DNA from: a virus
IMG/VR virus record: IMGVR_UViG_3300022744_000030
Location: 1-61,815 of that record
Direction: 5' to 3' (one strand)
Length of the DNA: 61,815 nucleotides
The position numbers and the translations under genes are program-made. Every line of letters begins with the position of its first letter. The stretch's first letter is position 1. The notes beneath the pieces are model-generated. The model was not told the DNA's origin. It saw nothing but the letters and a program-made list of their open reading frames with translations, and ran no database searches. Below, in pieces: positions 1-42,105 of the stretch.

Positions 1-544
1 TAACGTCACCGGCGTGAACATCAATGCCACGTTCGCTAGCATGTGCGCTGACGGTCGGAATGTTGTCTCGAACGATGTGCCAGACGCGGCCACCCATAGA
101 GCGGATCATTTCGGCTTCGTTTTCAAACCGCACATCAGTCACAACTGCGTGGTCAAAGCTGTCAGTGATTTGTTCGATTTTCCGAGCCGCAAGAGTTCGC
201 CATAGATCGTTGTTTACGATGTTGCGACCCCACTCGGTTCCGAGTGTTTGCATCAGTTGGCGTGGAGATTTGCCGATCCATGGAACGACAACTTCTTTCA
301 GACTCCCATTGAAGTGAGCCTCATTGAAGCCAAAAATGGCGCGCATTGCGTCTCGAATAGGGTCGGCGAATGCAACTGTTTTTGCGTTGAATGCCGCCTC
401 AAGCATGCCAGCAGCAGTGTCTTTGCCGCTTCGCGCTTTACCTGACAGCCCAATTATTTTTGGCTTTGGCAGTGCAAAAAATGCGCTCTTATCGACTTCT
501 CCAAAGCCGAGTTGAGCCTGGATTGACTGGGGTTTAGCCACCAT
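1..544 (-). CDS. Deoxynucleoside monophosphate kinase (partial, C-terminus off window)
   Basis: The reading frame is open from an ATG at 544 to the left edge, so the C-terminus is missing. Near residue 32 it has a P-loop, GLSGKARSGKDTAA, followed by an FADPIRDAMRAIFG stretch and a VVTDVRFENEAE segment typical of phage T4 gp1-type dNMP kinases. These enzymes phosphorylate dNMPs in the cytoplasm to feed phage DNA synthesis. The start ATG overlaps the stop of the upstream gene (TAATG), which suggests translational coupling. The family call is good; the substrate range cannot be read from this fragment. Confidence 0.85.
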   Translation of the reverse strand, partial: MVAKPQSIQAQLGFGEVDKSAFFALPKPKIIGLSGKARSGKDTAAGMLEAAFNAKTVAFADPIRDAMRAIFGFNEAHFNGSLKEVVVPWIGKSPRQLMQTLGTEWGRNIVNNDLWRTLAARKIEQITDSFDHAVVTDVRFENEAEMIRSMGGRVWHIVRDNIPTVSAHASERGIDVHAGDV

Positions 545-4271: not shown

Positions 4272-7200
4272 TTAGTGGCAGCTAGCCCAGTCGGTGCCTA
4301 GCATGTATCCAGCCGACAATTCTACGTTAAGTTTGTAGTGTTGTCCAGCCTCTCTTACAGCGATTGTTGCAAGCTCGCCAGCACGACAGTAGCCACGGAA
4401 CCAGCCCTTGTCATTGTGAACAGGGTCGCTCCACACCTTTCCGTCGTCGCTCTTGAACGCCTTGCACTCAGCTTCGCTACTGAACTTCTTCCACGTCACC
4501 ATGCTACGGCGAACCTCTAGTTGCGCCTCATCATGGTAGGCGATCAGTTGTTGGCAGAAGTCCTTATTCTTCCAGTCATCGCGGAAAAAGTCAACCCACA
4601 AACCCTCGTCTTTCAACATTTTTTCGTGGATAACCATCGCCCGCTTAGCACAGATGACGCCAGCAGACTGGAATGCCGTGTTGATGACGTTCCCTTTTGC
4701 GCGGATCGGCAACTTTCGGTTGTCGATGCCCATGAGGAACTTCTTCTGGCCCGGACCTTCCCAGTATTTCTGCATCTTTTCCTTGAGTTCTTTCAGCGGG
4801 CTAGCCTGCTCCCAGAACGCATCGAAGATGATCTGACCTGTATCCAGATCGCAGCCCACCGTCTTAGCCACACGCGTTGGTTGAGCATTGTAGCTGCACC
4901 CATACTTGACGTTCTTCGCAGTTGACCGAGGAAACTCACGTCCGAGTATTCCCGTGATCTTACGCGCAAGAACGCTATGGCAGTCATTCGGTTTTTCAGC
5001 CGTCAGACTCACCCCATACTCCGGACCTCCCGCATAGCGGTAGACGTAGTGGGCTTCGATCTTCGCTTCCACAATTTGTTCAGTGGCTTCGCAACAACCA
5101 CCCGAGGATTTAACCTCCGCACGCAGTCTCCTGCGTGTTCAGACTATATCATGGACTTTCGTCCCCTGCCACTTCGGAAGCCATAGGCTTGCTTCCTACT
5201 CTACTCCCTTCCGCATTGCTGCGTGGTTTCGATAGTCGTTGAACGTTACGTGAGCTACCAACTATAGTCTTTAGAAATCGACTTCCAGTTATCTCTGTTC
5301 CAGATTCTAAACAGCTTCTGGTACAAGAGCGTCGTGGACTTCGCCAAGTCCAGCGGCTTCACACCGCTTTGGAACAGGCTGCAAATCTCATGCACTTCTT
5401 CGTTGGTGAAAGTGCTTCTAGAGTGTGTATCTCCTTGCCACCAAGCAACAGACACTCCGGTTTGGAACGCATGCCGCTTGTTATCGCCTTGAGTCATCCA
5501 CTCTAGGTTACTACGATGGTTGTTCTGTTTGTTGCCGTCTTTATGATTGACAGTTCCTAGGTTGTCAGGATTAGGGACAAAGTGCTCGGCTACAAGCCTA
5601 TGCACACTGATTGTCCGTTCTTCGCAGTCTTCGCACAGCTTCACTGACAAGTACTCGTCAGATTGTGTGGACAAGAAGGGCTTCAATAACCTCCCTGTGT
5701 GCCTGCTCCAAACCCTGCCATCCTCGTAAACATCATAAGACGGCGACCAACGCACAGTCTTTCTTTCCATACCTACCTCCTTTCAAATAAGAGGTAGCTC
5801 ACGTCTTCGCTGCTGATTGCCCTCGCCATTGTACGTTAGGGTGTCCCAGCAATTCAACAGGTTTTACATTCGCCAGTCATTAACGAATCAAAGTCGTAAC
5901 CCAGTTGCAGAAATCCGTCATCCTTGTCAACTCCAAAGAGAGCCCGCATGTTCCTGCCATACAAACTGGTCACACGCGGAACATTAGCCACGAGACGGTG
6001 CTTAAAACGGCTTGTGCCAGCTCCGCAGGAGTCCGCAGGGGTCTGGATACGGCCGTCTTCCGCAATGCGCCCAGCGGCCATAAAACCCTTACCAGCGAAC
6101 TCGTCATCATCGTCTAGGTCGTCAGGATCAAACCCTCCGCCCAGGATGCTGTTACGCCTGTGAGCATACGTCAGGTACTCTGACACAAGCTTCGCATGCG
6201 GGAACTGGTCTGCAAGCTCAAGAAGCGCAGGGTCGATTTCTTTTTCCATACCCACGGTAATGGTGGGATTGGTGTAGACCTTCAGCGGCCTCTTCAGGTC
6301 GTGCTTAAGCAACTTGTCTCTGAGTCTCGAAGCAGACACGTCAAGTTCGTTGCAACGGTCACGCTTGAATGGACTAGACAGCGTTTGCTCTACGTAGCGT
6401 TCAACAGTGTCGGCAAACTTATCTGGTGTGAGCTTTTTCTTCTTGCTGTCACAGGTTATATCACGCTCCTTGTATTGCGTAGGACGCCACCCGAGTTCAA
6501 CAAGCCACCCCTTGATGTGGGTAGTGTCCTTGACAGTTGCTGGCTCGTGCGTCACAACAGCCTCGTCGGCTGGCATTGGCATCTTACCCTGCTTGTCGTA
6601 GACCTTGTACCACCAGTGCCCTGATTCCTCCCAAATCGAGCCCCCGTGGCGCTCCACCCACTTCAAAACAACGGCAGAAGGCTCGCCATTCTTCTTGAAC
6701 TGAATCTTCGGAGGAATGTACCCTTTCAGCTTCGTCAACCCCATCGGCTTCGGCGGCAGTAGCGGCTCGACCAACAGCCTAATCTCTTCCATCTTGGCGT
6801 CAAGTTCTCGGACATTTGCCTCTGCGAGTTCAGCGTTGAACCAGAACCCTCTGTGCGACTGTCGGGTGATAATGTCCCGTGTCATCTGCTCAAGCACAAA
6901 CGGGCCTTGCCAGTTCCAACTGCCCATTTCATCCACAAGGTTGAAATAGAGTTTAGCGTTAACTGCAACGTCACGCTCGTTGTACACAAGCATTTCTGGG
7001 TGATACTGGGCAAACTCTGCACCCTTTGGCGAGTTGTACTGGATAAGCCCAAGCTCAATTGCTTTTGCACGCCAGTCGATCTTGTCGAGTCCTAGGCGCT
7101 TACCCCACTCGTCAAGAGAGTGTCCGCCGTATCGGTCTGGGTTCAACACTTTGGACAAAACCAGTGTGTCGATAATTTCAACAGGTCTGCCGTCGATGTA

Positions 7201-7485
7201 GCACTGCTCGCCGATTTCATAGTCTATTCCGAGCCAGAGCTTTAGCACCAGCAAGTCATAGTCTATGATGTTGTGGCCGATGATGGTCGTCATCTTTGCC
7301 AGCAGGCGGGGAAATTCAGTCCGAACCTCGTCACCTACAAACCTGTACACAGCTCCAGTGTCGATGTCTTGAACAACCAAGCACCAAACCATGAACGTAG
7401 GCTTGAGCTTGAATGGGCTAGCCAAGTAGTCGATTGTAGTGTGGTCAAGAAGTGCGTTGGCTTCGATGTCAAATACGCCTCTCAT
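4272..7485 (-). CDS. T7-type family A DNA polymerase, split by a group I intron (exons 7485-5883 and 5071-4272)
   Basis: Joining 7485-5883 to 5071-4272 gives 2403 nt, 800 residues in frame. The exonuclease domain has DIEANAL near the N-terminus, HNIIDYD and YNERD. The polymerase domain has CGAGTSRF, motif A GYDFDSLEAKIEAH (restored only by splicing), motif B RSTAKNVKYGCSYNA and motif C YHDEAQLEV. The protein ends GTDWASCH, like T7 gp5 (GPNWAICH). Start is the ATG at 7485 with AAGGAG four bases upstream. Without splicing, exon 1 runs to a stop at 5854 and loses the active site. It is about 100 residues longer than T7 gp5. The polymerase call is firm; the splice sites are inferred from the reading frame and group I rules. 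Confidence 0.92.
5072..5882 (-). other. Group I intron in the DNA polymerase gene
   Basis: 811 nt separates the two exons. The upstream exon would end in T and the intron in G, as group I introns require, and the joined codons restore DFDSLEA exactly. Near the 3' end the minus strand has GATATAGTCTGA followed by a GC-rich hairpin (the P7/P9 region of phage IA-type introns); the same block occurs in the terL intron. It contains an HNH endonuclease gene. Boundaries may be off by a base or two. Confidence 0.85.
5255..5770 (-). CDS. Intron-encoded HNH homing endonuclease
   Basis: 171 residues inside the polymerase intron. An N-terminal NUMOD4-like segment (VRWSPSYDVYEDGRVWS) is followed by an HNH core: VHRLVAEHF, NHKDGNKQNN and NLEWMTQGDN. 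The C-terminal 60 residues look like a helical DNA-binding part. The start has a full AAGGAGGT ribosome site. Such enzymes cut intronless alleles of the same gene to spread the intron; here the expected target is polymerase motif A. Confidence 0.9.
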   Translation of the reverse strand: MERKTVRWSPSYDVYEDGRVWSRHTGRLLKPFLSTQSDEYLSVKLCEDCEERTISVHRLVAEHFVPNPDNLGTVNHKDGNKQNNHRSNLEWMTQGDNKRHAFQTGVSVAWWQGDTHSRSTFTNEEVHEICSLFQSGVKPLDLAKSTTLLYQKLFRIWNRDNWKSISKDYSW

Positions 7486-7642
7486 CCTTCTCCTTTTCTT
7501 GAACGTAGAAAGTACACCGTACAATCGGTGCATCCGTGTCGTGCGTTGCAAGCACAGGGCTAGTGGTCTTGGTCCGCTCGTTCCACAGCTTTTGTGCCAA
7601 GCTGAGCACAACGCCCTTGATGCAGTTATGGCGCTTCCTCAC
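7469..7642 (-). CDS. Small hypothetical protein
   Basis: 57 residues from a GTG that overlaps the DHH gene's stop (GTGA), ending 17 bp inside the polymerase gene start. The sequence has KGVVLSLAQKLWNER and a charged tail, EKEKDERRI. Not recognised. Coupled position on both sides supports it as a real gene. Longer starts in this frame fall inside the DHH gene. Confidence 0.5.
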   Translation of the reverse strand: MRKRHNCIKGVVLSLAQKLWNERTKTTSPVLATHDTDAPIVRCTFYVQEKEKDERRI

Positions 7643-11380: not shown

Positions 11381-13159
11381 TCAATACTCAGCAGTATTCT
11401 TACTAAGCCAGTCGTCCTTGTGCATCAACTGGTGCGAGTCATTATCGTACAGAAACTCTCCGCACGGGCCAGTCCTACCGTTGTCCCGGTTCTTGGACAG
11501 GTACACACTGGTAGTGTTGCGAGCTATTTCATCTTCGGCCATCTTATCACGTTGCAGAAGAATGTTCAATGCGGCTGACTTGAAAATAGTAGAGCTGCCG
11601 ATCATGGATTCCTCGTCTGGCATGCCACCCCTACTGGCACTTGTCGCCCCAGCCCCTGCTTTTCTGATGTGACTCACGTTGAAGAACGTAACACTGTGAC
11701 TCTTTACCATGCCTTTCTCCCATTTCATGAATAGCGCCTGTTCTTCGATCGATAACCCGTCTAGTACGTCTGACAGAACATCAATAACGATGACTTTTAC
11801 ATCCATTCCAATGACGAGTTCCTCTATCAGCCGTTTTATATCGTCTACAGAGCCATCCCTGTCGTCAACGAGGTGCCAACGATGGGAACCATCTTCATTG
11901 AAGAACAACTCACGCTCTTTGTCTTTTACCCACTGCGAGTCCAGGAAGCGTTGCTGCTCCTCTCTTGATTGGATATTATTGATCTTCTTGCCAATGTGCC
12001 TAGATAGCATTGATAACCCATACTGCCCAGCATTCAATTCCATCGACACTACCCCGATCTTGTGCGGGCTGTTGAAAATCCAATGATAAATCATCGTATC
12101 AACCCATGTCGTCTTACCGGTCCCTGACCCAGATGCCAAGTTAACGATCTTTCCGAGTGAGATGCCTCCCGCAGTCAGTTCGTTTAGCTCCTTCATAAAC
12201 GGCGGGAAGGGGATTTTCTCCGAACTCACCTCATCCCGCAGGCGTTTACCAAGGTCGCCACTACCGACAATCCCGGCTGGTACATGCTGCTTTGCATTCC
12301 AAAAGTCCTGAATGAAGTCCCTCTCTTTTCCAGCCTTAACGTAGTCATCAGCGTCTTTGAAGCGCATAGACATTATATAGGCTCGACCTTTTGGTAGGAC
12401 TTTTGCTATCTTCTCAGCAGCCTCTTCGCCAGCTTTGTCGGCATCCATGCAGACGATGATCTTTTCAAACTGGTTGAAGAATTCGTAGCGACTTTGCACC
12501 TGCTTGTATGCGCCGCTCTCGCCGAGCGTGGAGCAAACGACAGCAGGTGGTTCAAATTCAGACTTCCCTCGACGTTCGAGGTCGTCCTTGAGCATCTGGT
12601 ACGTGTTCAGGAGCTTGGTTTCACCCCCTACGATAATCACTGTGCGCTTCGAGTTCTTGAAGCGGAACTCGCCGATCATATCGCATTCCTTGCCGACCTG
12701 CCCAATCGGATTAGAAAAGTCTTTAGGGAATACGCGAGTGCGATATCCAGCTAGCTGGCCGTCTATTGTGGTCGGGAAATACTGTTTGCATGGCTCGCCA
12801 GTTTCGGCGTCGTACTCGTAGCGAACTCCGAAATACTTGTTGGTTTCGTCCCGGATTCCACGGTAGCCGTGGCCCTTCGTCCCGGTGTAGCTCTTGATTT
12901 CAGCGTTCTGTTCGTCTGTGATTTTTTCTCTGGTCATTACTTCTTGATCCTCTTCCTCTTCGGCATCCCACCCCATCTTAGCCATGTGCTCATCTGAAGG
13001 GATAGTGAAATTGCAAGACCAGCAAAAGGCGCCGTTACCGGCGCCATATACATGCATATTGTTACCAGCGTTATCGCGGCCGTTACGTCGGCATCGCGGG
13101 CATGCTGTTTTATGGGCATAGCTCGTGTCAATCCCGTATTTCTCTGCTGGTGTCGTCAT
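11381..13159 (-). CDS. T7 gp4-like DNA primase-helicase
   Basis: 592 residues. Residues about 20-50 carry a zinc finger (CPRCRRNG ... CWSC); a TOPRIM domain follows with VGGETK near 180 and CMDADKAGEEAA near 240; the RecA-like helicase domain has Walker A GSGTGKTTW near 345, then VSMELNAGQYG, a Walker B-like VIVIDVLSDV and a C-terminal STSR-type region ending with LSKNRDNGRTG. It primes the lagging strand and unwinds DNA with the T7-type polymerase. Length is close to T7 gp4 (566). Confidence 0.93.
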   Translation of the reverse strand: MTTPAEKYGIDTSYAHKTACPRCRRNGRDNAGNNMHVYGAGNGAFCWSCNFTIPSDEHMAKMGWDAEEEEDQEVMTREKITDEQNAEIKSYTGTKGHGYRGIRDETNKYFGVRYEYDAETGEPCKQYFPTTIDGQLAGYRTRVFPKDFSNPIGQVGKECDMIGEFRFKNSKRTVIIVGGETKLLNTYQMLKDDLERRGKSEFEPPAVVCSTLGESGAYKQVQSRYEFFNQFEKIIVCMDADKAGEEAAEKIAKVLPKGRAYIMSMRFKDADDYVKAGKERDFIQDFWNAKQHVPAGIVGSGDLGKRLRDEVSSEKIPFPPFMKELNELTAGGISLGKIVNLASGSGTGKTTWVDTMIYHWIFNSPHKIGVVSMELNAGQYGLSMLSRHIGKKINNIQSREEQQRFLDSQWVKDKERELFFNEDGSHRWHLVDDRDGSVDDIKRLIEELVIGMDVKVIVIDVLSDVLDGLSIEEQALFMKWEKGMVKSHSVTFFNVSHIRKAGAGATSASRGGMPDEESMIGSSTIFKSAALNILLQRDKMAEDEIARNTTSVYLSKNRDNGRTGPCGEFLYDNDSHQLMHKDDWLSKNTAEY

Positions 13160-13163
13160 CAGG

Positions 13164-13415
13164 TCACGCCAGTGAAATCAAACGCTTCGTAGCGAGGCGT
13201 CGCTGGCGAGTCCAGCAAAGCTCCCGCAGAACGTCCTTGTCCAGTTTTTGATCTTTGCCCATCACCTTCAATTCTTCACGAATTGCTTTGGTCACTTGGT
13301 ACTGGCTAAGAAACTTGAACAGTAGGTAGTCTTGCTCACGTACAGAGATGGAGTTTGCACGCTGCGCAATTCGAGATTGGACACTGGAAATCAGTTTGTT
13401 GAGGGACATCGCCAT
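13164..13415 (-). CDS. Hypothetical protein
   Basis: 83 residues, basic and helical (MSLNKLISSVQSRIAQ, then TRQRRLATKRLISLA). It precedes the primase-helicase gene by 4 bp and directly follows a promoter embedded in a hairpin, so it is probably the first gene of the replication transcript. The charge suggests nucleic-acid binding, which is inference. Confidence 0.6.
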   Translation of the reverse strand: MAMSLNKLISSVQSRIAQRANSISVREQDYLLFKFLSQYQVTKAIREELKVMGKDQKLDKDVLRELCWTRQRRLATKRLISLA

Positions 13416-13444
13416 CTTGTAAGTTCCTTTCTGGTTGTTTCTGA

Positions 13445-13484
13445 GCCGAAGCCGCTATTGTATGCGGCTTCGGCAAGTTGTCAA
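13445..13484 (-). promoter_or_regulatory. Sigma70-like promoter with its -10 inside a hairpin loop
   Basis: On the minus strand TTGACA (13484-13479), a 16 bp spacer, and TACAAT (13462-13457). The -10 lies within the 8-nt loop of a perfect 11-bp inverted repeat (13445-13455 and 13464-13474). It would drive 13415 and the primase-helicase, downstream of the HNH gene. Confidence 0.7.
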
Positions 13485-13487
13485 GAT

Positions 13488-14039
13488 TTACTTGGTGTTG
13501 ATGATGCCCTTGTGTCTTGCAGTGTATTCAGCACCAGTCGAGTTTAAGGCATCTAGCTTGGCGAGTCTGAACTTAACGGTAAGATCAAAAGCACTATCTC
13601 CGTGTCTTAGCATAGAAAACGCCTTCTCTTTGACCTTTCCGCCTTCCATCCACGTCGCTACCCAATAGCTGAATGTCTTTCCGCTTGGGATTTCCCTGAC
13701 TTTATTGTGGACGCCTTTTACTCCGGATGTGTTATCACATCTTACACCCGTATTGTGAGTATTTACTACTTGAGGGACGCAACGCAAATTTTCTATTTTG
13801 TTGTCACTTTTAACGCCATTTATATGATCTACAGTTAAGTTGTTTGGTATGCCTCTATTATTAAGGCAGAAGACAACCCTATGAGCCATAACGTCTTGGC
13901 CTGCAATAGTGACTTTATAGTACCCACTTGTCTTACACAGATAACCAGCCGGTTGGCCTGTCATATGGCGAAGGCAAGAGGTACTCGTCTCGTCGTAGTA
14001 AAATTTCCCACTAGCTTTTTCGTAGTCTATCTCAATCAT
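13488..14039 (-). CDS. HNH homing endonuclease with AP2-like C-terminus
   Basis: 183 residues. HRVVFCLNNRGIP, then VDHINGVKSDNKIENLR (HNH core), a GVRCDNTSGVKGVHNK link and SYWVATWMEGGKVKEKAFS, which is the AP2-type strand pattern. Free-standing, with the ATG overlapping the stop of the SPFH gene (ATGA). It lies between the SPFH lipoprotein and the primase-helicase operon. Confidence 0.88.
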   Translation of the reverse strand: MIEIDYEKASGKFYYDETSTSCLRHMTGQPAGYLCKTSGYYKVTIAGQDVMAHRVVFCLNNRGIPNNLTVDHINGVKSDNKIENLRCVPQVVNTHNTGVRCDNTSGVKGVHNKVREIPSGKTFSYWVATWMEGGKVKEKAFSMLRHGDSAFDLTVKFRLAKLDALNSTGAEYTARHKGIINTK

Positions 14040-14833
14040 TTACGGGTGTCAACAATACCTCGGAAGTCGTAGGGCACAACGATTGCTTGGACCTTGCCAG
14101 CAGCGATACCTTCCGCAATCTTCATCTGTGCCGCTGCCTGCATGTATTGGATCGCGCCAGTATTGGCATTCAGGGCAGCGATTCGCCGGCTCTCGGCCTC
14201 TGCCGTGCGAACTTCGACTTCCTTTTGCAGCAGGCCGTTCTTGGCGCGCACAAGCTCGTTTGCGCTTGCAACGATGGAATCTGCCGGGACAACGCCACGG
14301 ATTTGAACACGAGAAATCGTGATCGAGTTGCCAAGACCTTCGGCTTGCAGCGTTGCGTTGATGATCGCCTTGATTTGCGTCTCCATCGCCTCGCGATTGT
14401 CGTTCATCGTCAGGGCCTCGTACTCTCGCGCAGACTTGTACGCGGCGTTTCGGGCCGTCTGGGTGACGTAATTGTACATCAAGTAGATGTCGCCGTTCGC
14501 TTCAGCGTGAAAGCTACGGCTCTTCGAGCTGTACAGTTCCGCGACCTGACTTTGATTGATGCTGTAGATGACAGACAGGTCAAAGTCCTTCATCGTGCTG
14601 TTGTCTTTTGCAATCGGGGTCATGTTCTCGATGACAGCCGACACGTCCTTGATTGGGAACGTGATGATCGATCCCACCAAGGTTTGGTTGAAGCTGCCTG
14701 GCAGTAGCTCGCCCTGCTTGATTTGCTTGTCATAGCCAATACGCACACCGACTTCGCCGGTTTCGATTCGAGTGCATCCAGCGGACATGATTGCCAAGGC
14801 AGCGATTGCGGTAGCAGCGAAAAACTTCTTCAT
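14036..14833 (-). CDS. SPFH/Band 7 domain lipoprotein
   Basis: 265 residues from the ATG at 14833 with AAGGAG upstream. Signal peptide KKFFAATAIAALAIM with lipobox MSAGC, then GEVGVRIGYDKQI and a long SPFH-type domain (VIENMTPIAKDNSTMKDFDL; SREYEALTMNDNREAM), ending with a helical Ala/Glu-rich region (NGLLQKEVEVRTAEAESRR). SPFH proteins oligomerise at membranes and often regulate proteases or form cages. A periplasmic lipoprotein version in a phage could alter the envelope or exclude other phages; this is inference. A possible promoter (TTGGCT-16-TACACT) lies upstream near 14962-14990. Confidence 0.85.
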   Translation of the reverse strand: MKKFFAATAIAALAIMSAGCTRIETGEVGVRIGYDKQIKQGELLPGSFNQTLVGSIITFPIKDVSAVIENMTPIAKDNSTMKDFDLSVIYSINQSQVAELYSSKSRSFHAEANGDIYLMYNYVTQTARNAAYKSAREYEALTMNDNREAMETQIKAIINATLQAEGLGNSITISRVQIRGVVPADSIVASANELVRAKNGLLQKEVEVRTAEAESRRIAALNANTGAIQYMQAAAQMKIAEGIAAGKVQAIVVPYDFRGIVDTRK

Positions 14834-14853
14834 TGACTTTCTCCTTGTACTGG

Positions 14854-15030
14854 TTAGAAACAAATGACAATCGCTGCCAGTGCAGCGGTTGCCACAGATG
14901 CGGTGAGAAGGGCGACTAGCGCCCATTTTGCAAAGCTCAGCTTCTGTTTGAAAGTTGAACTACGCAACGCAGTGTAGCACAGAAACGAGAGAAGCCAAGT
15001 TATTACGAAAACGCCAATAAGTCTTAGCAA
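14854..15030 (-). CDS. Small two-helix membrane protein
   Basis: 58 residues from a TTG overlapping the end of thyX, with a GAGG-type site upstream. Two hydrophobic segments (LIGVFVITWLLSFLCY and ALVALLTASVATAALAAIVI) are joined by a short basic loop. It could be a holin, given the SleB-type lysin nearby (15706-16218), or a partner of the adjacent SPFH lipoprotein. Neither is proven. Confidence 0.55.
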   Translation of the reverse strand: MLRLIGVFVITWLLSFLCYTALRSSTFKQKLSFAKWALVALLTASVATAALAAIVICF

Positions 15031-18936: not shown

Positions 18937-19188
18937 TTGAGGTTCCAAAGCTGCTCTAACATTAGGAGAGCTATGGGTGTTTTACGAACAAACTCCTAAG
19001 TTATGTGATAACTAGCAGCATTTTGCCTACACTTCAGACTTTTTGGAAACACTTCGAGGATTTCCAAGGTCGATCCCGGATTTGTGGCATCTCCGCTACA
19101 TGTCCTCCTGCGACTCTTAGTTAGGTATACTTAAACCTTGGGTAAACTGGGTATGATTTACCCCAACTGTAAAAACGAAAGGACACTA
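18937..19188. other. Leader region upstream of the MazG-like gene
   Basis: No convincing gene. It has an 8-codon ORF with a good AGGAG site near 18960-19000 and promoter-like TATACT/TATGAT boxes near 19124-19155. I see no clear terminator. Confidence 0.35.
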
Positions 19189-19659
19189 ATGTCAAATACC
19201 TCCTTCCAGTCTGTCTCCGCCATGAACACAGCGTTCGGCAATAGTCGTGGAAACTACGACGCTGTTGACTGGGATCGACTGAAGTCTCAGTGCAAGAACA
19301 TCTTGGACGAGTACAACGAACTTTTGGAAGCTCTTGAAGAAAAGAGCAAGATTAAGACGCGAGACGCATTGTGTGATATTCAGGTGTTCGCCATGGGCGC
19401 ACAACACTTAATGGGCATCGATGGCGACAACGATATGAAGGATGTCGTTGACGGCGTTATGACTCGCTTCATCAAGAGCCCGGAAGACCTCGAAAATACT
19501 CGTGCGTTCCACTGGCTACGCGGCGTTACCGAAACATACACGGAAGGTCAGTTTCCGACGATGGTTCTGAAGAGTTCGTGCGATCAGCCAGACGCTCCGA
19601 AAGGTAAGTTCCTGAAGAGCGTAAGCTACTCTGACACAGAGTTTCGTGCTGTTGTCTGA
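19189..19659 (+). CDS. MazG-like nucleotide pyrophosphohydrolase
   Basis: 156 residues from the ATG at 19189 (AAAGGA upstream). The helical core ILDEYNELLEALEE followed by RDALCDIQVFAMG has the E-x(2-3)-E ... E/D-x-x-D metal-binding layout of MazG/all-alpha NTP pyrophosphatases. The C-terminal third (SPEDLENTRAFHWLRG, PTMVLKSS, KFLKSVSYSD) is a tail also seen in phage MazG-like proteins. It would hydrolyse (d)NTPs or possibly (p)ppGpp. It is followed by a hairpin at 19842. Confidence 0.72.
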   Translation: MSNTSFQSVSAMNTAFGNSRGNYDAVDWDRLKSQCKNILDEYNELLEALEEKSKIKTRDALCDIQVFAMGAQHLMGIDGDNDMKDVVDGVMTRFIKSPEDLENTRAFHWLRGVTETYTEGQFPTMVLKSSCDQPDAPKGKFLKSVSYSDTEFRAVV

Positions 19660-19995
19660 CGATTGAGGCACGGCCGAGTTGCATGGCGACTTGGCTTCAT
19701 ACTGTTGCGCAGAACTACTCAGAAAGCCACAGCCGAGGAAAAATTTGAGGCAACTTCTCCTATATAGCGCGGAAGTTGCCATGAAACTTTCAGGCGCGCA
19801 AGAACATTGGCTGTTCTTAAACAAACTCGCAAATACAATAAGCCCGCGCACAGGCGGGCCTCACTCTGAAGTGGAATTCTACAGTGATTCAGTCTCGGCT
19901 ACCGTTTGAAATTCTGGCCGAAGTTTTCTGGGGAAAATAAAAATGCAGTTTTCCCTATTAATGGAACCTCCCTCCCTCCCCAGGGCAGCACCTCG
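19660..19995. other. Intergenic region with bidirectional hairpin
   Basis: No supported gene. A GC hairpin GCCCGC-6-GCGGGC lies at 19842-19859; on the minus strand it is followed by TTATTGTATTT, so it may terminate leftward transcription better than rightward. A pyrimidine run (CCTCCCTCCCTCCCC) near 19967-19981 precedes the iteron array. Confidence 0.4.
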
Positions 19996-20132
19996 TATAT
20001 AAGCCCTGGCGAATATAACCGCTGGCTTATATAAGCGGATTCTTATATAAGCGGCGGCTTATATAAGCCATTCAATATATAAGCGAACACTTATATAAGC
20101 TACTTAGAATATAGGCGTTTCAGTATATAAGC
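19996..20132 (+). repeat. Iteron array: nine TATATAAGC repeats with exact 16-bp period
   Basis: Copies of TATATAAGC begin at 19996, 20012, 20028, 20044, 20060, 20076, 20092, 20108 and 20124. Seven are exact; the second (AATATAACC) and eighth (AATATAGGC) are degenerate. Spacers are always 7 bp and differ from one another. Copies 3 and 5 extend to the 12-bp palindrome GCTTATATAAGC. The strict period implies ordered binding of a protein along the DNA, as in replication-origin iterons or partition centromeres. Confidence 0.85.
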
Positions 20133-20346: not shown

Positions 20347-20375
20347 TTGACAAGATCAAAAAGCCCCTGCACAAT
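20347..20375 (+). promoter_or_regulatory. Early-type promoter
   Basis: TTGACA, 17 bp, CACAAT. It lies about 40 bp upstream of the 20415 gene. Confidence 0.65.
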
Positions 20376-20414
20376 GCGAAGCATCAAAACCTGAAACGCA
20401 AACGAAAGCCAGTT

Positions 20415-20705
20415 ATGAAAATTGTCACGAACAATGTCCCGCGATTTACTGTTAACGGATTCGACCTTACAAAGCGTGAGCGTGCAGAATTCGACCACTA
20501 CAGTCCTGAAGAACTGAACAGCGCCGTATTTTTCCGCTATCGTGAAAGCGTATATGACCTCGCAGAATTCATGCGAGTTCAAGACGAAGCCGGCGATCTG
20601 AAAGGCTGGCACGGGTACGCATCGTATTCTTATTTTTCTAGCGTGGTTGTCAAGTTTGTGGATGCTTACGCAGAATCCGTGATCGTCGGCAAGTACTACG
20701 CATAA
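20415..20705 (+). CDS. Small early protein, conserved but uncharacterised
   Basis: 96 residues from the ATG at 20415. FTVNGFDLTKRERAEFDHYS, then FFRYRESVYDLAEFMR and GWHGYASYSYFSSVVVKFVD. I have seen this arrangement (FFRYRGxVYDLxEFMR, YFSGVVVRY) in small proteins of proteobacterial plasmids and phages, function unknown. It has its own promoter and is followed by a terminator-promoter unit. Confidence 0.7.
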   Translation: MKIVTNNVPRFTVNGFDLTKRERAEFDHYSPEELNSAVFFRYRESVYDLAEFMRVQDEAGDLKGWHGYASYSYFSSVVVKFVDAYAESVIVGKYYA

Positions 20706-22082: not shown

Positions 22083-22111
22083 TTGACTGTCTCGCATTTT
22101 ATGGCAGAATG
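22083..22111 (+). promoter_or_regulatory. Early-type promoter
   Basis: TTGACT, 16 bp, CAGAAT, 31 bp upstream of the 22142 start. Confidence 0.6.
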
Positions 22112-22141
22112 CGAAGCATCAAAACCAAAGACAGGCACGAA

Positions 22142-28497: not shown

Positions 28498-28700
28498 AGG
28501 CCTAGCCCGATAACCAGCGTTTCGCACATTTCATTGACAGCACTATCTCCAACTTCTACGTTAGCGTGGGCTTTGAGTACGATCCGAGAAAGGGCGTAAA
28601 GTTCTTCCTGGCTCTCAATGACAATCTCATAAAGTTCTTCCTGGCTCTCAATGACAATCTCAATAGGGTTGAATTCAGGCTCCTTGGTTTTAATCTTCAT
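28494..28700 (-). CDS. Small hypothetical protein with an internal tandem repeat
   Basis: 68 residues containing EIVIESQEELY twice in a row, produced by a perfect or near-perfect 33-bp direct repeat. The rest is acidic and helical. Coupled to the SLOG gene. Unknown. Confidence 0.6.
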   Translation of the reverse strand: MKIKTKEPEFNPIEIVIESQEELYEIVIESQEELYALSRIVLKAHANVEVGDSAVNEMCETLVIGLGL

Positions 28701-40409: not shown

Positions 40410-42105
40410 GTGACGACAGGTTAATCTTTGCACCATGTAGTCTGAAGCAGCAGATGATCCTGCTGGATGATGATACAGATATTCTGCTTTGCGGTGGTGG
40501 TAAACTTGTGCCTCCACGTTAAAAACAATCCTCTAACTCGGTGAAACTCTCTGCGAGACAATACCGAGCGAAGCCGCTATAATGGCGGAACGTGTAACGA
40601 CTATCTCGAAAGAGAGTACACCTAAGCGGGTGGAAACGGGGATTACCTGCTATCACAGGTAAAGATATAGTCTGATCTGCATGGCGACATGCAGCGGCCC
40701 ATTTGGGCGGGGAAGGTATAGCAAGCCTTTTTGAACACCATTGGCAGGAGGCGGGAAATCGCACGCATGCCTTACCAAGGCGTTGAAGTACATCAATGAC
40801 CCCGCAGCGCGTGTCATGATCGTCCGACGTAGCTACCCTATGCTGAAGCTGTCTGGGGGCCTTGTAGACGAATCTAAGGGCATCTACACACACTTCGGGG
40901 GTGTGCTCAAGGTTCAAGCCCTGACATGGGTATTTCCTAACGGAGCTACAATCCAGTTCGCGGCTATCCCTGACAACCTAGGCGAGTGGCAGGGGCTGCA
41001 AGCAACGAACATCCTCGTTGACGAAGCCGCAGAGTTCACACAAGAGGAAATCCTGTTCCTACTCTCACGTCTTCGTGGTGCAAAGTACAAGGGACACATG
41101 AACATCACGATGACGTGCAACCCGTCGCGTGACTCATTCCTTTACGACTGGGTTAAGTATTCACTTAATGAAGCAGATGGCATCCCAGCCAACGGAACTG
41201 AAAACATTCGCCGGTACTTCTTCAACGAGTCTGGTAAAATGTACTGGGCAGACAGTGTTGAAGAGCTTTGGGAAAAGCCTGGACAACCTCTAGGCAAGAA
41301 TCGTGACCCGTCTAAAGGCAAGATCACATTCCTTCCAAAGAGTTTCAGGTTCATCCCTCTCACGGTGTATGATAACCCGATTCTGCTGAAGAACAACCCT
41401 GGGTATCTTGCAAACCTGCTGTCACAGCCGCGTGTAAACCAGCTCCGATACCTACATGGGTCTTGGACTGCACGCGCAGAGGGTTCTGGGTTCTTCCGCA
41501 GGGACTGGGTTGAGATTGTTGACTTCCCGCCTGTTAATCCAGTCGCTGTAGTCCGAGCATGGGATATCGCTGCAAGCGTCGTTTCAGAGTCTACACCAGA
41601 CCCGGACTGGACTGCGGGAGTGAAGATGTCTAGAGATAAATACGGCATCTATTACATAGAGCATGTTCATCGTACCAGAAAGTTGACTGACGGGGTTCTC
41701 AAGGACATATCCGACACGGCAAGAAACTTTGATGGCCTAGACTGTCAAGTTACTATTCCTCGTGATCCTGGGGCGGGTGGTAAAGTAGCTAATGCATTTT
41801 TCATCAGGGCATTGGCGGAGGACGGCGTTGCAGCAAAATCTGTTGTAGTGTCTGGTCAATCTGGCAAGATACAGCGCTTCCTACCATTTTGCTCGCTTGC
41901 AGAAAGTGGAGCCGTCCGTGTAGTCCGAGGAGACTGGAACGAGGACTTCCTCTCAGAGCTGGAATGTTTTGAAGGCTCCCGCAATCAACATGACGACATG
42001 GTGGACGCCACATCCGACGCATTCAACACATTGTCGCGTCAAGTTCAACTCCCGACGTTCGCAGTACCCGTGCTTTCACAAGCAAGTCCTGTGCCAACTG
42101 TGTAG
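40406..42105 (+). CDS. terL: Terminase large subunit, split by a group I intron (exons 40406-40501 and 40744-42105)
   Basis: Exon 1 (32 codons) ends LLCGGG; exon 2 starts AGGGKSH; joined they give the Walker A motif CGGGAGGGKSH in a 485-residue protein. Walker B is ILVDEAAEFT near residue 120; the nuclease domain has RAWDIAAS near 275, a PRDPGAGG segment and NQHDDMVDATSDAF at the end. TerL cuts and pumps DNA into proheads. Unspliced, exon 1 stops after 38 codons, so packaging depends on splicing. Confidence 0.93.
40502..40743 (+). other. ORF-less group I intron in terL (Walker A)
   Basis: 242 nt. The 5' exon ends in T (GGT) and the intron in G (ACCATTG), as group I rules require. It contains GGGGATTACC and AAGATATAGTCTGATC with a GC hairpin (GCATGGCGACATGC), matching the 3' part of the polymerase intron. 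No endonuclease inside, but an HNH gene lies immediately upstream. Confidence 0.87.

Follow-up and report, generated by a model that had tools for sequence, protein, structure and literature searches.

Iteron-type replication origins such as those of RK2, R6K, P1 and the lambda O sites have steps of about 17-22 bp, each origin being read by the product of a linked Rep or O gene, and some known iteron origins have no DnaA boxes. Tandem iterons with strict spacing are also a known form of ParR/TubR-type partition centromeres, and E. coli oriC carries three AT-rich 13-mers as direct repeats approximately 16 bp apart beside DnaA boxes. The stretch of freshwater phage DNA analyzed here (IMG/VR record IMGVR_UViG_3300022744_000030, 61,815 nucleotides, hereafter the window) contains nine copies of TATATAAGC in tandem (Table 1). 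The array resembles the plasmid and lambda-type iteron origins in its tandem direct repeats, variable spacers and non-coding location (those origins being often beside DnaA boxes as well), but differs from them in its 16-bp step, in that a search for a linked initiator gene found none, and in a motif that also occurs singly between DnaA boxes in other phages. It differs from the 13-mers of oriC, which are three copies of another sequence, and the spacers of the window are not AT-rich. On balance, sequence comparison makes it most likely that the array is the iteron block of a phage replication origin; its iterons would form a new family, marked by the 16-bp step and by a core that DnaA boxes also flank as a lone site.

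Every step between successive copies in the window is exactly 16 bp, with no base gained or lost between any two of them, and seven of the nine copies are exact. The in-phase chain score of the array is 23, compared to a maximum of 3 in shuffled sequence, both when the whole window was dinucleotide-shuffled 100 times and when the local 400 bp were shuffled 2000 times, and no other periodic signal in the window is as strong; the coordinates and shuffles thus confirm the nine copies, the 16-bp period and the two degenerate copies reported in the preliminary description, which also stated correctly that the spacers differ from each other. The mean pairwise identity of the eight 7-bp spacers is 31%, versus 91% for the nine cores, which indicates that the copies are not recent identical tandem duplicates: recent tandem duplication would be expected to leave similar spacers, and because the spacers are unrelated, the core and the register look maintained. 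The claim that the spacing is under selection is supported by this turnover of spacers with a held core and register, and by the occurrence of the same 16-bp step in unrelated phages; cooperative binding of a putative protein along the array, as also proposed, is plausible. Four of the nine copies reach the palindrome CTTATATAAG (at 20026, 20042, 20058 and 20090), of which approximately 0.05 copies are expected in the window and none is found there outside the array. Folded as a single strand, the array is only mildly stable (z -2.8), and its palindromes account for this stability, so a structured-RNA reading was set aside; no RNA element near the array was found in Rfam at gathering level.

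Table 1. Coordinates of the array and of neighboring features in the window.
Feature	Position	Strand	Basis
MazG-like nucleotide pyrophosphohydrolase gene, left neighbor	19138..19659	+	phrog_2144, 1.1e-17
Terminator-like stem-loop, left edge of the non-coding interval of the array	19840..19861	-	consensus match only
Whole array, nine TATATAAGC copies, 16-bp steps	19996..20132	+	
Copy 1, TATATAAGC	19996..20004	+	
Copy 2, AATATAACC, degenerate	20012..20020	+	
Copy 3, TATATAAGC; extended palindrome GCTTATATAAGC 20025-20036	20028..20036	+	
Copy 4, TATATAAGC; palindrome CTTATATAAG from 20042	20044..20052	+	
Copy 5, TATATAAGC; extended palindrome GCTTATATAAGC 20057-20068	20060..20068	+	
Copy 6, TATATAAGC	20076..20084	+	
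Copy 7, TATATAAGC; palindrome CTTATATAAG from 20090	20092..20100	+	
Copy 8, AATATAGGC, degenerate	20108..20116	+	
Copy 9, TATATAAGC	20124..20132	+	
Sigma70-like promoter TTGACA-17-CACAAT, start of rightward small-gene cluster	20347..20375	+	promoter scan
Small gene, right neighbor, start codon inferred	20415..20705	+	phrog_1845, 3.4e-10

The array is non-coding, in an interval bounded by a terminator-like site and an early-type promoter. To its right is a run of small genes annotated without function, presumably early, and further to the left are leftward genes of replication (primase-helicase, ligase, DNA polymerase and ThyX); the previously assigned position between the MazG-like gene and the early genes is therefore right, given the match to PHROG 2144 and the presumably early character of the small genes. 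A search with the first small ORF (20415-20705) as the query found no relatives. A repeated box, CACAATGCGAAGCATCAAAACC / CACAATGCGAAGCATCAAAAC, occurs in the window at 20369-20391, at the -10 end of the sigma70-like promoter, and again at 22104-22126, and also in the relative G028; CACAATGCGAAGCATCAAAACC is probably an early-promoter family. No DnaA boxes were found near the window array by a box scan and a degenerate search. The GC skew minimum of the window is at 36.3 kb and not at the array, but skew was rejected as an origin marker because it follows gene direction.

Two exact copies of the core at a 16-bp step were found in 48 stretches by an exact pattern scan of 2.9 million viral contigs, many of these stretches being arrays of 3-12 copies, mostly intergenic, in diverse uncultured phages. 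When the gap was left free, 16 bp was the dominant step (64 occurrences, plus 9 at 32 bp), and steps of 10, 17 and 18 bp came mainly from two other recurrent elements. The unit consensus over 26 distinct arrays is (C)(T)TATATAAGC (logo of 92 distinct units: C58% T62% T-A-T-A-T-A-A-G-C77%), and the other positions are near-random. Limnohabitans phage DC31 was the only cultured phage with a credible match among 50,697 phage records searched by BLAST, the sensitivity of which for short repeats is limited; a BLAST search of 72,556 plasmids, similarly limited for short repeats, found no array, and a plasmid origin was rejected as the source of the element for want of such a match. A GTDB-wide scan found no comparable spacer-variable array of the phage type; its triple-copy form returned mostly a simple repeat, TATATAAGTATATAAG, in Psychrobacter and three-copy operator-like sites upstream of ArsR-family genes in relatives of Bacillus, with TATATAAG at 16-bp steps (L055, L060, L061, L065, L066, L069, L071, L078, L082), where an unrelated regulator apparently uses the same 16-bp geometry.

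The window phage and the DC31 group are distantly related, with 47% identity in primase-helicase, 41% in portal protein and 38% in TerL. In DC31 and its uncultured relatives the array touches a DnaA-box cluster, and within 600 bp of arrays there are 1.25 DnaA boxes per kb versus 0.08 per kb elsewhere, all of the strong clusters near arrays being in DC31-type phages. The palindrome CTTATATAAG, of which 0.1-0.25 copies per genome are expected by chance, lies between inverted DnaA boxes in DC31, G001, G016, G020, G021, G025 and G037. When TTATNCACA, CTTATATAAG and TGTGNATAA were searched for in this order and gaps of 0-25 bp were permitted, 90 composites (65 of them distinct) emerged, and in 84 of them both gaps are 8-10 bp, giving the form TTATNCACA-(8..10)-AGTCTTATATAAGACT-(8..10)-TGTGNATAA (for example, L234:6173-6219 and L250:2296-2341). 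This fixed geometry cannot be due to chance, and the composite of TTATNCACA, AGTCTTATATAAGACT and TGTGNATAA, present in at least 84 phage loci and apparently unannotated, looks like a widespread phage origin element. Curvibacter phage P26059A has one intergenic composite, at 72339 (L243:22339). Only eight of the 84 composites have an array within 500 bp and 76 have none, so the array is an optional, multiplied form of a site of origin type. None of 349 genomes of Pseudomonadota and none of 369 genomes of the class of G051, a sample that may not include Limnohabitans-like hosts, contained the composite; it is thus seemingly no simple copy of a common host origin, and its absence from the sampled genomes, which may not cover Comamonadaceae and in which the orders of G121 and G067 are too small to be informative, disfavors a copy of the host chromosome. 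A second iteron family, 20-bp repeats resembling CAGTCA[CGT]AAAATGAACGGTT, flanks the DnaA boxes on their far side in DC31 (L126:19850-20110), G003, G021 and G037.

In the window, DC31, G016, G021, G037 and P26059A, the interval from the ClpP gene to the ThyX gene contains either an array or a composite, so the window array is placed like the origin-like elements of its relatives, and it stands where they have DnaA-box clusters. The putative origin regions of DC31 and P26059A, which are not annotated as such, share with the window the palindrome CTTATATAAG in this position; DC31 also has a 16-bp array, unlike P26059A with its single site, and both phages differ from the window in having DnaA boxes. 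As expected of an iteron origin, the window array is a non-coding series of direct repeats that keep a single register; adjacent DnaA boxes, also expected, are absent from the window and present in the DC31-type relatives. Because some iteron origins are without DnaA boxes, their lack in the window lowers the likelihood of its membership in this class but does not exclude it.

From these comparisons we infer that the sites are origins, that replication starts at the array, that the units are bound by a dimer, and the other properties of the binding protein. Each unit would be a half-conserved palindrome with the consensus (C)(T)TATATAAGC, and a dimeric DNA-binding protein, encoded by the phage or by the host, would occupy successive 16-bp units, placing neighboring sites on opposite faces of the helix; the bound protein may then help to open the duplex or to load the phage primase-helicase. 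In the DC31 group, the location of the AGTCTTATATAAGACT palindrome between two inverted DnaA boxes implies that the factor would act there beside host DnaA; in the window, where DnaA boxes are absent, the array alone would mark the origin. No initiator-like or helix-turn-helix/ribbon-helix-helix (HTH/RHH) candidate was recognized among the 55 small ORFs of the window, in which unfamiliar folds are possible, and phylogenetic profiling found no phage protein that tracks the presence of the array; candidates for a phage-encoded binder were rejected because the proteins common to array phages are also in array-less relatives, or are structural or metabolic. A more specific proposal, tentative and rather doubtful, is that CTTATATAAG is the site of an unrecognized origin-binding factor, probably supplied by the host and common to many freshwater phages. 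Its three supposed uses, mostly as a single site in the form TTATNCACA-9-CTTATATAAG-9-TGTGNATAA, in some phages as 16-bp arrays, and in the window as an array that replaced the DnaA boxes, are taken together possible but not probable. If this proposal is true, the origin of the window phage is free of DnaA boxes.

The main rival to the origin reading is an early-gene operator, at which a regulator of the phage or the host would regulate early transcription and take no part in replication. In several large phages (for example, L010, L012, L016 and L029) a good sigma70-like promoter (TTGACA..TATAAT) precedes the start of the array by a few tens of bases, several unrelated phages have the same array beside terminase genes or just downstream of such promoters without DnaA boxes, and the array of the window is approximately 215 bp upstream of the early-type promoter, but it overlaps no promoter found in the promoter scan. 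The three copies of TATATAAG at a 16-bp step before ArsR-family genes in relatives of Bacillus suggest that such a geometry can serve a winged-helix repressor; these autoregulatory sites resemble the array in step but differ from it as bacterial promoter operators with an adjacent regulator gene, of which the window has none, and a phmmer search with Bacillus ArsR proteins as queries yielded no credible match in the ORFs of array phages. Since the palindrome is moreover locked between DnaA boxes in DC31-type phages, an operator is unlikely, although less so than the other alternatives. One of these is that the array is a binding platform or decoy, unrelated to initiation, for a host nucleoid or defense protein that prefers TpA steps. 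It would fit the failure of any phage protein to track the array, the sharing of the array by several unrelated phages and the infection of Limnohabitans by the sole cultured phage that has it, but a fixed geometry with DnaA boxes would be unexpected, and we consider a decoy improbable.

A packaging or terminase-recognition site, that is, a pac- or cosB-like array bound by the small terminase, is suggested by L006, L017, L026, L028, L036 and L047, in which the array precedes a gene for the small or large terminase by a few hundred bp; with the terminase gene (TerL) of the window 20 kb from the array, and the DC31-type arrays at DnaA boxes kilobases from TerL, such a function is very improbable. 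The preliminary description had compared the array to replication iterons or a partition centromere. The former comparison is supported by the related phages with the same core in or beside origin-like clusters of DnaA boxes in the same gene neighborhood. The latter gained no support: strictly spaced tandem iterons do match the general form of ParR/TubR-type centromeres, but the window genes scanned (55 small ORFs and the larger genes) yielded no ParA, ParM, TubZ or ParR family, the array was found in none of the 72,556 plasmids, and phage DC31 is a clear-plaque isolate (PMC12195039), so that a centromere is hardly credible.

The array is optional rather than strictly conserved. Relative G028, with approximately 80% nucleotide identity to the window where aligned, has neither the array nor the interval around it; its MazG gene continues directly into the second half of the following gene, perhaps through a genuine deletion or through a misassembly in a contig that is without much of the genome. 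The closer long relative G036 (61% identity in TerL, 55% in primase) also has no array; close to its ClpP gene, an intergenic gap contains three DnaA boxes and no CTTATATAAG; G037 has kept the composite without an array. The search of related phages that had been proposed therefore gave a divided answer, in that the DC31 group has the core or array and G028 and G036 do not, and absence from close relatives, named beforehand as evidence against the array, was partly found.

The literature searched contained no recognized description of TATATAAGC, CTTATATAAG or GTCTTATATAAGAC as such an element, and the P26059A paper makes no mention of origins or repeats. For most lytic phages that infect uncultured bacteria the origin is not known; here one specific sequence word, its fixed spacing and a composite with DnaA boxes are linked across many freshwater phages, and because two of these are cultured (DC31 and P26059A), the origin and its binding protein are open to direct test. 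If the origin reading is true, it would also show how, in a single lineage, an iteron array may come to take the place of DnaA boxes at a phage origin.

Other features of the window genome were observed. Contig G035, 99.97% identical to the window, extends 503 bp to the left of position 1 without a match to the right end, so the window does not represent a whole circular genome. A group I intron (Rfam RF00028, 70 bits) at 40479-40694 (+) is just before the terminase ORF at 40741, in which the family match begins at profile position 174; the intron probably splits the terminase gene. The DNA polymerase gene (ORFs 5854-7611 and 4272-5072) is interrupted by approximately 0.8 kb with an HNH-type ORF (5070-5883, -), likely a mobile intron or endonuclease insertion, and G028 aligns on both sides of this segment with almost nothing between. 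Another HNH-type ORF (13488-14039) is absent from G028 at a clean joint, where the blocks aligned to 11540-13512 and 14063-15012 abut, and a perfect 33-bp tandem duplication is located at 28597-28662.
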